Part shown: in pieces, positions 14,205 to 41,129 of the stretch
Layout of the letters: every line of letters starts with the position of its first letter
Numbering within the stretch: position 1 is the first letter of the stretch
Origin: Thermoplasmata archaeon
GTDB taxonomy: Archaea > Thermoplasmatota > Thermoplasmata > Methanomassiliicoccales > Methanomethylophilaceae
Direction of reading: 5' to 3'
NCBI GenBank assembly: GCA_015063165.1
Contig: SUSZ01000013.1
Span: 1-47,698, forward strand
Length of the DNA stretch: 47,698 bases
Made by a program: the position numbers and the translations under genes
Notes under the pieces: model-generated
Databases searched by the model: none
What the model saw: only the letters and a program-made list of their open reading frames with translations
What the model was told of the DNA's origin: nothing

Positions 14205-16223
14205 TTAATTCTCTTGAATCTGCTTCTTGAGCTCGACGACCCTCCTCTTGGCCCAGGGCACGCCCATCTGGTAGGCCTTCCTGTACCAATCGATGGCCGC
14301 TTTGACGTCCGTCTCTTTCTGAAGCCCTGTCTCGAGAGACTTCGCGCCGACGCAGCACAGCAGGGGATCGTCGGTCCCTCTCTCAACGAGCTCTCTCAGC
14401 TCGCCTTTGCCGGCGGTGAAGAGGACCAGACGCATCATCCTGCTGGTGACCTCCTGGCCCTTGAGAACCTCCGCCTTCTCCCAGATGGACAGCAGACGCT
14501 CCGCGGGGCGAGGATAATCGAGTCCTTTGTCTATGTCCAGGCCGTCGAACATCTCCATTATCCTGGACGCCAAGGCTTCCGGCCCCTCGTCCAGGACGTT
14601 GTACTCCCAGTAGTTCCTCCTGCCCAGGCCCTTCGCCATGTAGCTACGGGAGTTGTCATCGGAATATCTGAGGACGACGAGGTTGCAGTCGGCGTACATC
14701 GCGACCTCCATGAACCCTGTGAAGACGGTGACGACGAGATCGAACCCGGAGGCGGCGTTCATGAACGTGACTATGTCGCCCTCGTACCTCTTGGTGCCAG
14801 GTAGCTCCTCCTGCTCGGGGAAGGGGGTGTTGGTGTATACCTCGTATCCTCTCCCCAGGAGCCTCTCTGCCAGACCCAGCATGACGCCCATCGTGTTCTT
14901 CTTCTCGTCCTCGGACCTGACCTCTATGGAATTCCCGTATGGGTTCAGAAGGATGGAGCGCGGCCCGTGCAGACCCGACCTCCTCAGCCTCTCGCAAGGG
15001 ACATCCGCCGGCTCGACCACGGACAGAGCGGGCTCCTGGACGCGCCTGGCGGCCCCTATGTAGAAGCTTGTGTCTATGTCCCCATGGAACATCGCGCCGG
15101 GGTACAAGGGCTTGTGAGGGATCATCTTGAACCTCTGATCCTCATGATAGTTCATCGACAGGTACATGCGAAGGCTCTTCACGTCGCCCCTGGACATGAT
15201 GAAGCCGTTCATCCCCGCCAGACGAGGAAGATCCTTCGCCGTCTCGGTGACGACCATGCTCACGTCCGAGTAGTCGATGCCGTCGAACCTGGCCAGCCAT
15301 CTGTAATTGTCCCCCATCGGGTAGAATGACGTTATCATGAACCTGCCGCCCCTCTCGGACAACTTATCGCACATGGCCTTTCCGATCAGGTACCTCATCT
15401 CGATCTCCGAGACGCTGATGATCTCGAGGCTTCCGTCGGATTTGCGACCGGTGTACAGCCCCCTCTCGTTCATGATGCGGGTGTCCACGATGGCGTTGGA
15501 GGGGATCGAGCTGATCTCCTCTTCGGAGTTCGGAGCGAAGACGGCGCCGATATCGGTGCCCGTGTCGAACTCCCTGGACCTGAGGAGCTGGTTCTTGGCG
15601 CGGCTGGACTTGCCGTATGGGCAATAGACGAACACCTTCCCCGGGCCGGATGGCTTGAACCCGTTGGTGCTATATTTCACGAAGCATCTGGATGTCTTGT
15701 CCTCTGGGCATGACGTCCCATAGATTTCAGGCATGTCTCCGTCCGAACAGATGAAACGGTCTGGACGGACCCCGTAGTGAGCCAGTATGCAGAAGAGCGA
15801 GCGGATCTCGGCCTGTGTTCCGCACAGGACTATCTCCCCGTTGAGGAAGATCTCGGGATTGATGGTGCACTAGAGCTCGGCGCCGTTGCCGCTCTTGATG
15901 ATGGGATTGTCGGAATAGAGGATGTTCAGGGCGGCCTTGACGTCGCGCTCGACGGCTATCCCGTTGAAATACATCTTGAACAGCCAGAGCCTTCCCCAGA
16001 ACTGGTCTATGTTCTTGCGAGCCAGCTCCAGAGCCTCGGCGTGGTGCCCGGGATCGTCGGAGCACAGCAGAACGTTGCAGAGGTCCTTCTCGCTGGCCTT
16101 GCCCTCGGAAACGGCTTCCCTGGCGGAACGTATCGCCTCGTCCATGTCGATGCGGTCGAACGTCCCCTTCAGGACCTTCCTGTAGGCCGGGACCTCGGAA
16201 CCGCGTCTTTCGATGCTTCCCAT
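14205..16223 (-). CDS. Sel1/GT-B-like glycosyltransferase-type protein with in-frame UAG (codon 118)
   Basis: Read through the UAG at 15870-15872, this is a 672-residue protein colinear with its neighbour at 16285-18327 over its whole length. Residues 1-115 are helical Sel1-like repeats (LARKNID, RLWLFKMYFNG). The middle part has a hexapeptide-like region (GEIVLCGT, VFVYCPYG). Residues around 390-560 look like a GT-B/heptosyltransferase-type domain (LLNPYGNSIEVR, NTPFPEQEELPGT, FDLVVTVFTGFMEVAMYA). The C-terminus is again Sel1-like (AIDWYRKAYQMG). The role is probably in glycan or surface modification, by inference. AAGGATAT precedes the ATG. The UAG aligns with a Lys of the paralogue, and the true stop is UAA. 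Confidence 0.75.
15870..15872 (-). other. In-frame UAG sense codon aligned with Lys in the paralogue
   Basis: UAG lies between GAG-CUC and UGC-ACC. The flanks align with the adjacent paralogue: AEL-UAG-CTIN here against AQY-K-YIVN there, and the shared F-x-x-G-E/D-IVLCGT continues in the same frame. A lysine derivative (pyrrolysine) at a lysine position is a natural reading. Confidence 0.8.
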
Positions 16224-16284: not shown

Positions 16285-18327
16285 TCAGGGCTGCTCGGGA
16301 TCGAATCCCGCTTCCATGGAGGCTTTAAGCTCCCCTTTCAGAACGCTGACCCTGCTCATGAACAGGGTGACCCCCTGCTTCCCTGCCCTTCTGTACCACA
16401 GGATGGCGCGCCTCTTGTCTACCGGCACCTGTATCCCGTGGTCCATGGCCATGGCGCCGACGCAGCAGAGCAGCGGGTCCTTCGTCCCTTCGTCCACGAG
16501 GCCTTTTATGTCCTTCTTCCCGGCGCTGTAGAGGATGGCGCGGACGAGCTCCAGGGTTATCTCGTCCTTGCTGAATAATGCCGCCTTCTCCTGGATGGTC
16601 ATGGCGCGCTCGTTGTTCCTGTAGAATCTCTTCGGCTTGTCTATCGGGAGTTCGTCCATTATCCTGGTGACCTTAGAAGCCAGCACGCTGGTCTTGTTCT
16701 CCAGGAGGTTCAGCTCCCAGTAGTTGTCGCGGCCAAGGCTCCTGGCCATCCTCTTGCGGCTGTTCTCGCGGGCATAGCTCAGGACCACCAGGTTGGCCTT
16801 GGAGTACATCACGGTCTCCATGAACCCGGTGAAGACGGTGACGATGAGGTCGAACGAGGTCGCCTGCGCGACGGTGGTGACTATGTCCCCCTCGTACCTC
16901 ATGGTCCCAGGAAGCTCCTTCTGGTCCGGGAAGGGCGTGTTGGTGAACACGAGGTATCCTCTCTTGAGGAATCTGCGGGAAAGCGCCACCATCGCGTCGT
17001 ATCCCTTCTTGCTCTCGTCCTCCGGCCTGATGGCTATGGAGTTCCCGTACGGGTTGAGGAGCACCGTGCGAGGGATGACGGGAGCCGCCCTTTTTCTGGC
17101 CCTGCCCACGTCGGGGATCGTCCCCATGGCGTTGAGCCCGGGATCCTTGAGACGTCTGGCCTCCCCAACGGTGAAATGGGTGTCGAGATTGCCGTGGAAG
17201 GTCGTTCCGGGATAGAGCGGCTGGTACGGGACCATCCTGACCATCGGGTCCTCGTGGTACATCATAGACAGATAGATGCGGATGCAACCGATCTCCCCTC
17301 TGGAGAGCAGCATGCCTTTGACCCCTTGAAGAACGGGGTGGTCCCTGGCCGATTCCGTCACGGCGAAGGTGACGTCGGAATAATCGACGCCTTCGAACCT
17401 GGAGATCCATCTGTAGTTATCCCCCATGGGGTAGTAGGAGGCCACCAGGTAGCGCCCTCCCCTCTCCTTCATCCTGTCGTAGATGCCCTTGCCTATCCTG
17501 TACCAGGGCTCGAGGGTCTCGAGGCTGCAGCTCTCGAAGTCCCCGCTGGACTTGCGGCCGATGCAGTATCCGGCTTCGTTGAGGATGCGCACGTCCACGA
17601 TGGCGTCCTTCGGAGCCCTGTTCAGAGCGACGATCCCTCTAGGCGCTATGGCGGCGCCTTTGTCGGGGGAGAATGTCCTGGGCAGCAGGAGCGAATCCTC
17701 GCCCGCGGCCTCCTCGCCGAACGGGTGGTAGACGAAGACGGCGCCAGGGCCTGTCTCGATGTCGCCGTTGGTGCTGAACCTGATGTAGCACCTGCTCTCC
17801 CCGTCGTCCGGGCAGGGCTTGCCGTACATCTCTGGAAGCTCCTCGCCGGGGCATACGTAATAGTCCGGGCGCACGCCGTAACCGGCGCAGACGCAGAACA
17901 ACGAGAGGACCTCCTTGCGGGTCCCGCACAGGACTATGTCCCCGTATACGAAGATGTCCTTGTTGACGATGTATTTGTACTGGGCACCGCCGGTCGCGCT
18001 CATGACGGAATCGTCGTAGTAAAGGGTGCGGAGGGCGGTCTTGATGTCGCGCTCGGTTCCGACGCCGTTGTAGTACATCCTGAACAGCCAGAGCCTTCCC
18101 CAGTCGTCGATGTTCTTCCTGGCAAGGCACAGCGCCTCCTCGTGGAGCTCGGTATCGTTGGTGCAGAGCAGCACGTAGCAGAGGTCCTTCTCGGTGGCCT
18201 CTCCTCTGGAGAATGCACGCCTGACGGACTCCACCGCCTCCACCATATCGACCTCCTCGAAAGATCCTGTCAGCACTTTCCTGTAAGGGGCATCGAGCCC
18301 GGGTTTCTGCTTCTTGGAACCGCCCAT
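16285..18327 (-). CDS. Sel1/GT-B-like glycosyltransferase-type protein, UAG-free paralogue
   Basis: 680 residues, the same architecture as the gene downstream of it: N-terminal Sel1-like helices (LARKNIDDWGRLWLFRMYYNG), a strand-rich centre (GDIVLCGT, VFVYHPFG), a GT-B-like half (VLLNPYGNSIAIR, NTPFPDQKELPGT, DLIVTVFTGFMETVMYS) and a C-terminal Sel1-like unit (RAILWYRRAGKQG). No transmembrane segment is seen. I use ATG 18327, which gives the MGGS- start matching MGS- in the paralogue, rather than the GTG at 18351. It is 61 bases upstream of the second copy in the same direction, so this is a tandem duplication. The substrate is unknown. Confidence 0.65.
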   Translation of the reverse strand: MGGSKKQKPGLDAPYRKVLTGSFEEVDMVEAVESVRRAFSRGEATEKDLCYVLLCTNDTELHEEALCLARKNIDDWGRLWLFRMYYNGVGTERDIKTALRTLYYDDSVMSATGGAQYKYIVNKDIFVYGDIVLCGTRKEVLSLFCVCAGYGVRPDYYVCPGEELPEMYGKPCPDDGESRCYIRFSTNGDIETGPGAVFVYHPFGEEAAGEDSLLLPRTFSPDKGAAIAPRGIVALNRAPKDAIVDVRILNEAGYCIGRKSSGDFESCSLETLEPWYRIGKGIYDRMKERGGRYLVASYYPMGDNYRWISRFEGVDYSDVTFAVTESARDHPVLQGVKGMLLSRGEIGCIRIYLSMMYHEDPMVRMVPYQPLYPGTTFHGNLDTHFTVGEARRLKDPGLNAMGTIPDVGRARKRAAPVIPRTVLLNPYGNSIAIRPEDESKKGYDAMVALSRRFLKRGYLVFTNTPFPDQKELPGTMRYEGDIVTTVAQATSFDLIVTVFTGFMETVMYSKANLVVLSYARENSRKRMARSLGRDNYWELNLLENKTSVLASKVTRIMDELPIDKPKRFYRNNERAMTIQEKAALFSKDEITLELVRAILYSAGKKDIKGLVDEGTKDPLLCCVGAMAMDHGIQVPVDKRRAILWYRRAGKQGVTLFMSRVSVLKGELKASMEAGFDPEQP

Positions 18328-18432
18328 TTTCCCGACCTTGCCTGGTAGCACGTTCCATGCATGCGCGATCGCCAGAATTCAGTCAAAAACACCGACGCTA
18401 GCATGCACGTTTCCATGCTCTATAAGTAACCG

Positions 18433-39008: not shown

Positions 39009-41129
39009 ATGACTGCCACCGCTCTGATGGATCTCGTAGAGGGAGGCGGATGCATCGGATGCTACGCCTGCCTCCATGTCTGCGAGAAGGATGCCATAGC
39101 CCTCCGCATGGACGAGAGGGGATTCCGCACGGCACAGATCGATCCTTCCGCATGCGACGGCTGCGGGAAGTGCGTCCAGACGTGTCCTCAGCTGACCGGA
39201 GAGGCCGACGGGAAGCCCATGGCCGCCTGCTATGCTGTTAAGGCCGAGCCTACGGTGCAGTCCAGGAGCTCTTCCGGAGGAGCGTTCGACCTTGTCTCCA
39301 GGTGGATGCTCAGGCGCGGAGGATCCGTATGCGGGGTCGCGATGGCGGAAGACCTCGTCCCGACGTTCAGGATCGCCCGCGACGAAGAGGGTCTGGAACC
39401 GATGCACGGGTCCAAGTTCGCGTTCAGCGACATGAAAGGCATCTATGATGGGATCTCGAAGGAGCTGGAAGACGGCAGAGAGGTCCTTTTCGTGGGTCTC
39501 CCCTGCCAGGTCCGCGCCGTCCGCAACGTCTTCCATGACGACCGCCTCTACACTGTCGACCTGATCTGCAACGGGATGCCGTCGGAAGGCGTCTATAGAA
39601 GGTATCTCGAAGAGCTTTCACAGAGCAGGAAGGTAGCGAACCTCGTGTTCAGGGCCTCAGACGTCCACTAGGGCACCCTTGTGGTCGCTTACGAGGACGG
39701 GACGACCAGGAACATCGTGAACGACCCGTATCTCAAAGGATACTCCGAATGCCTTTTCGTATCCGACGGATGCTCCGGATGCAGGCTGGCCAATACCCCT
39801 CGCGTCGGGGACCTGACCGTCGGGGAGCTGTTCGAAGCGGACAGGATCCTCCCGGACACGGACGTCCGCGACGGGGTCAGCACCATCCTGGTGAACAACG
39901 ACAAGGGAGGTAGCATGTTCGACGGGATCCAGAAGGATGCCTCGTACGTCAGGCGCATCCCGCTCTCGTTCTCCAAGAGGTTCAACAATTACGACAAGAA
40001 GCGCGACAGTCCCGAGAAGGAGAGGTTCTTCCACCTGCTGGACAAGGGGATGCCGATGTCCAAGGCGCTGCTGTACAGCGTCGAGCGCAGGTACGACGTC
40101 GCCATAACAGGGTTCTGGAGGGTGTACAACTACGGCGGGGTGCTGACGTACTACGCCCTGTACAACCTGATGGAGGACATGGACCTGGAGCCTATTATGG
40201 TCGACAGCAGGCACACGATAAAGGGCCGTCTGCCCAACCCGAGGCTGTACAGGACCGGATATCCGGCCTACAGCAGGGACTTCTGGTTCGCCACCAAGGA
40301 TGCCCAGCGCAAGGACCTGAACCCCCGCATCCGCAACTTCGTCGTCGGATCCGACCAGGTCTGGAACAGGGACCTGATCAAGCAGGAGTCGCTGGAGGCC
40401 TACGGACTGGACTTCGTGGAGCCCTGGAGGAACAGGGTGTCGATAGCCGCGTCCTTCGGGAAAGGGAAGTTCTCAGGGTCGGACGAGGACAAGGAGAGGT
40501 TCGCCACGCTTCTGAAGAGGTTCAACCACGTCTCCGTGAGAGAGGACGCAGGGGCGAAGCTGTGCAGGAGCATGGGCGTAAAGGCCAGAACCCTTCTGGA
40601 CCCTGTCATGCTGTGCGATCCTCGCCATTTCCTGGAACTCGCCGAGAAGGGCGATGCCGAACCCGAAGGCGAGTACGTGTTCAACTACATGATCGTCCCG
40701 GCCAGATTCGAAGGCATGGGAGAGGTCTACGACGAGTTGGGGATAGAGCCCGTCACGATACCTGGAGCCGCCGCTGTGGGGGCGGAGAAGCTGGGCGTGC
40801 CGCTTACCGACCCTGGGTGCGTCGAGAACTGGATGAGGTACTTCCAGGGATGCTCCTTCGTGTTCACCGACTCGTTCCACGCCACGGTGTTCTCCATCCT
40901 GTTCAGGAAGCCGTTCGTCACCATAGCCAGCGAGACGAAGGAGGGCGGAGGCAGGGTAGGCACGATCCTGAACGCCCTCGGCCTGCAGGACCGCATGTTC
41001 GAGAGCGTGGGCAAAGTGCTGGAATCCGGCGTCCTCAAAGAGCCCATCGACTTCGATTCGGCTCATGAGAAGCTGAAGACGCTCCGCTCGGACTGTCTGG
41101 AATGGATAGACAAGGCCCTGATACGCTGA
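39009..41129 (+). CDS. FrhB-like/polysaccharide pyruvyl transferase fusion with in-frame UAG (codon 221)
   Basis: With the UAG at 39669-39671 read as sense, this is a 706-residue two-module protein. Residues 1-65 are a dicluster ferredoxin (CIGCYACLHVC, CDGCGKCVQTC). Residues 80-340 are the F420 hydrogenase/dehydrogenase beta-subunit fold (SSSGGAFDLVSRW, FVGLPCQVRAVRN, then CSGCRLANTPRVGDLTVGE after the UAG). Residues 360-706 are a polysaccharide pyruvyl transferase domain (GFWRVYNYGGVLTYYAL, VVGSDQVWNRD, FTDSFHATVFSI). Such pairs occur in glycan loci, where the F420/flavin module may reduce or modify a sugar. The UAG splits the FrhB domain, so neither fragment alone would be complete. The stop is UGA. 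Confidence 0.85.
39669..39671 (+). other. In-frame UAG sense codon in the FrhB domain
   Basis: UAG is between GUC-CAC and GGC-ACC, just after FRASD and before the LVVAYEDG strand. FrhB relatives often have Trp near this point (FRxxxxGW), so UGG to UAG is one possible origin. Confidence 0.8.

Follow-up and report, generated by a model that had tools for sequence, protein, structure and literature searches.

A predicted pyrrolysine codon in one of two tandem Sel1-like/glycosyltransferase-like genes of a Methanomethylophilaceae archaeon

The tandem gene pair and its protein family

The window, meaning the whole 47,698-nucleotide stretch of contig SUSZ01000013.1 analysed here, contains two adjacent paralogous genes on the reverse strand. 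Gene A (14205–16223) is predicted to encode a Sel1-like/glycosyltransferase-like protein of 672 residues if its UAG codon is read as pyrrolysine (Pyl, O). Its frame, which runs from 16223 down to 14205 and terminates at TAA, is open save for a single TAG, codon 118 of the read-through translation (15870–15872; CTA on the forward strand, TAG on the reverse), and other stops or frameshifts are absent. Gene B (16285–18351, with an in-frame ATG at 18327 as an alternative start) contains no internal TAG. Alignment of the two proteins sets O118 of gene A against a Lys codon AAA of gene B on the same strand (17976–17974), and the preliminary description, which had placed the UAG opposite a lysine of the tandem paralogue, was exact on this point.

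The identity of the encoded family is only partly defined by profile and structure searches. Pfam Sel1 scored 20.9 bits in gene A and 30.0 bits in gene B, against a curated cut-off of 30.7, and sequence searches of the PDB and NCBIfam returned no family beyond this marginal Sel1 match. An AlphaFold model, built with four sequences, reached a mean pLDDT of 50.6, with values of 24–35 around residue 118; it places this residue after the N-terminal helices and, at such quality, shows nothing more. Weak Foldseek matches to this model (best E-value 2.8e-3; WaaC aligned across about 158 columns with an E-value of 5e-3) weakly suggest that the C-terminal part resembles GT-B transferases such as WaaC, a heptosyltransferase-like fold. 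The glycosyltransferase-like label is used here as a lead rather than a result.

Coding beyond the UAG and use of TAG in the host genome

Downstream of the TAG, the frame of gene A continues for 554 open codons, a length with a chance probability of about 3e-5 on stop-triplet frequency alone, and the coding signal past the TAG (0.43 per codon) equals the gene median (0.41). The host genome, a 2.28 Mb draft in 67 contigs, carries pylS, pylB, pylC and pylD in one cluster, and the NCBIfam models PylB, PylC, PylD and PylS_Cterm all score above their curated cut-offs. A tRNA-Pyl with the anticodon CUA adjoins this cluster, and both mtmB genes of the host, which encode classical Pyl proteins, contain one TAG each.

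Stop usage was sampled on about 415 kb of stretches from the same genome, with open reading frames (ORFs) picked by codon usage. Coding sequence continued past TAG-ended ORFs in 14 of the 17 with an extension of at least 20 codons. The same test gave 10 of 169 for ORFs ending in TGA and 3 of 22 for those ending in TAA. TAG acted as a real stop in at most 7 of the 281 scored ORFs, and several of the remaining TAG-ended ORFs have a TGA immediately or shortly after. TAG seems rarely to be a true stop in this genome, in agreement with the 1.6% of TAG stops given for Ca. M. alvus (PMC4153887). The order Methanomassiliicoccales is already known to use TAG sparingly as a stop and to have many Pyl proteins (PMC4153887, PMC5011839).

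The apparent near absence of genuine TAG stops from the sampled stretches implies near-constitutive decoding, which argues against a dual output from gene A, with termination at the UAG yielding a 117-residue Sel1-like fragment, readthrough yielding the full protein, and Pyl supply tuning the balance. Such an arrangement would suit the location of the UAG after an N-terminal piece of mostly predicted helices (in a low-confidence model), and UAG decoding depends in principle on the level of Pyl-tRNA. However, RNA folding found the hairpin downstream of the UAG to be unremarkable (z −1.34, not significant), and we regard regulated dual output as highly unlikely.

The UAG codon in the sister species and across the family

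A scan of genome contigs for further relatives yielded a single match, a sheep-rumen Methanomethylophilaceae metagenome-assembled genome (MAG) from a sister species (G026; GenBank contig JAFYAH010000027.1). Its matching locus is syntenic with the window (cobQ, vsr and ybjQ at 88%, 80% and 84% identity, respectively) and encodes a syntenic orthologue of gene A, G026a, plus its own tandem copy, G026b, both with TAG at the exact gene A codon. A seven-member alignment was assembled from genes A and B, G026a, G026b, a further copy from the host genome (C48), G029 and G025. Identity to gene A is 62% for G026a, 56% for G026b, 51% for gene B and 49% for C48, and about 39–40% for G029 and G025 over the best-matching segment only. 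At codon 118 of gene A, the column contains TAG in gene A, G026a and G026b, AAA (Lys) in gene B, CGC (Arg) in C48 and CTG (Leu) in G029 and G025.

Immediately after the site, the three O-bearing genes all have Cys, and the four others have Tyr or Phe. This pattern might represent co-variation with O and could equally reflect shared ancestry.

Under the standard code, the frame of gene A ends at the UAG and an internal ATG at 15734 opens 509 residues, so the gene could be taken as split or as a pseudogene, perhaps with a restart at this ATG. The 45 codons from the TAG to that ATG, however, show a dN of 0.17 versus a dS of 1.5 between gene A and G026a; the stretch that the restart model leaves untranslated is therefore under protein-level selection. 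The intact frame beyond the TAG and the persistence of the TAG in the sister-species orthologue, which is 62% identical, also speak against a real stop, the probability of which we consider very small. The draft state of the genome could be thought to favour a sequencing or assembly error, but the recurrence of the same TAG in the genome of another species, whose contig is also deposited independently in GenBank, renders this practically negligible. The sister-species TAG and the downstream selection thus rule out, as far as sequence allows, a sequencing error, a pseudogene and a split gene. Random residues at the site together with disabling mutations downstream had been named in the preliminary description as what would refute its reading of the site. 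The downstream part of this expectation fails, as the orthologues are intact and two retain the TAG, although the site residues do vary (K, R, L, L).

Two features of a Pyl-encoded protein are accordingly found in gene A, namely homology and purifying selection that run on past the UAG, and a UAG kept at the same codon in the orthologue and its tandem copy. With the pyl machinery and the open frame, they make it very probable that the UAG at 15870–15872 is a sense codon, decoded as Pyl through PylS and tRNA-Pyl(CUA) to give one full-length protein of 672 residues. Actual incorporation of Pyl into the gene A protein is what we infer from this sequence basis.

Whether the codon stands specifically for lysine is a separate matter. 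The preliminary description considered a lysine derivative chemically natural here and proposed, as a check, asking whether UAG and Lys alternate between the two paralogues in sister genomes. Such alternation would be expected of a site needing a modified lysine. The idea of a lysine derivative holds insofar as the UAG is very probably sense and pyrrolysine is a lysine derivative, but Lys is not the rule opposite TAG, and the alternation is not borne out by a column reading O, O, O, K, R, L, L. The AAA of gene B favours lysine substitution, yet it is weak evidence alone because Lys constitutes about 6% of residues in these proteins. Additional support comes from the third family copy in the host genome (C48; L034, G000:C48:26328-28268, forward strand), which has Arg at the gene A site and a separate TAG of its own within the motif LPGT(O)RYE, at a position occupied by Lys AAG in five of the other six members; this is the sole mostly-Lys column among the compared TAG sites. 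In contrast, the gene A column contains Arg and Leu besides its one Lys, the residues opposite TAG codons elsewhere in the genus are chiefly Tyr, Glu, Ser, Cys, Ala, Leu or Val, and a partial tally of residues opposite TAG already points away from an excess of Lys. We therefore regard a specific lysine substitute as decidedly unlikely. Furthermore, Lys AAA is not an obvious direct precursor of the UAG, since the conversion needs two base changes, via AAG or a TAA stop. A single base change separates TAG from many counterpart codons (TAC, GAG, TCG, AAG), and the overall pattern appears to follow mutational accessibility and tolerance rather than lysine chemistry.

Other in-frame TAGs in the genome and genus display the same variety. 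Within the window, a ferredoxin/polysaccharide-pyruvyl-transferase-like gene (39009–41129, forward strand) contains a TAG at 39669–39671. Tyr, usually encoded by TAC, occupies this position in 14 of 18 homologues, so this UAG replaces a conserved Tyr. Elsewhere, a large secreted-looking repeat protein (L082, G000:C17:4984-7974, reverse strand) contains two in-frame TAGs, the first of which recurs in six homologues spanning five species and is replaced by Cys in one more; the protein is a better candidate for selected Pyl than the UAG of gene A. A Sel1-repeat protein (L097, G000:C29:24784-27030, reverse strand) has a TAG common to four species, where the remaining homologues carry Cys, Ser or Tyr. 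Further TAG sites in the genus lie opposite Glu/Ala/Ser/Gly, Ser/Glu or mixed residues.

Selection on pyrrolysine and relation to known systems

Comparison of the family sequences weakly supports selection for Pyl itself at codon 118. Fourfold sites of gene A and G026a are 37.5% identical, and neutral retention of all three TAG bases would therefore be expected at about 5%. Among the 172 columns in which gene A, gene B and C48 all differ, G026a keeps the gene A residue in 60. In the roughly 30 codons that directly follow the TAG, G026a and G026b (L033, G026:C26) share about 91% DNA identity, against an average of about 60% elsewhere, and gene conversion between them is probable. Because of this likely conversion, their TAGs probably represent one event, and independent triple conservation of the TAG was rejected. 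The branching of the tree of five close family members is not settled.

These data are compatible with Pyl being tolerated or mildly favoured at this codon and require no special function. A stronger proposal, that Pyl 118 is selectively maintained and lends A-type proteins a property absent in the Lys, Arg or Leu paralogues, the tandem duplicates having specialised by amino-acid alphabet, appears unlikely. The idea that the pair offers the same protein with and without UAG is sound for genes A and B, but the contrast is limited to this genome, as the sister species has UAG in both tandem copies.

The gene A codon probably arose because TAG, which has almost ceased to serve as a stop in this lineage, can emerge by point mutation at tolerant positions. 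In A-type genes it would then have been retained at this site, which lies after the N-terminal Sel1-like helices and before the following domain, with paralogues using Lys, Arg or Leu at this codon instead. Pyl there probably has no catalytic role and would be tolerated or mildly preferred. The best reading of the gene A UAG is an ordinary, occasionally conserved Pyl sense codon, one of many in the genome. Later work has reportedly proposed that TAG always means Pyl in some archaea.

Methylamine methyltransferases MtmB, MtbB and MttB likewise contain an in-frame TAG, decoded as Pyl in their case and predicted to be so in gene A. In those enzymes, Pyl serves to activate the methyl group of the methylamine for transfer and is tightly linked to function (PMC9842639), whereas the gene A site is variable among paralogues and a catalytic role is not indicated. 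With the non-methyltransferase Pyl proteins of Methanomassiliicoccales, gene A shares the order, the pyl cassette, rare TAG stops and a TAG in an accessory gene with TAG-free homologues. Published accounts list 16 extra Pyl proteins beyond methyltransferases in Ca. M. alvus, half of them with homologues without the codon (PMC4153887), and 46 genes with an in-frame amber codon in rumen strain ISO4-H5 (PMC5011839). The Sel1/glycosyltransferase-like family is not named in the consulted passages of these accounts (PMC4153887, PMC5011839), and gene A differs in that its TAG is shared at one codon by two species and can be set against a tandem paralogue. Gene A is a well-supported addition to the kind of Pyl protein already described for the order.

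In this genus of rumen and gut methanogens, accessory genes use UAG as a functional sense codon, which is sometimes conserved between species and interchanges with codons for Tyr, Glu, Ser, Cys, Lys and other residues. Genes that contain it will be broken up by standard gene calling. Paralogue pairs with and without UAG provide a means of asking whether Pyl is ever selected outside the methylamine methyltransferases.
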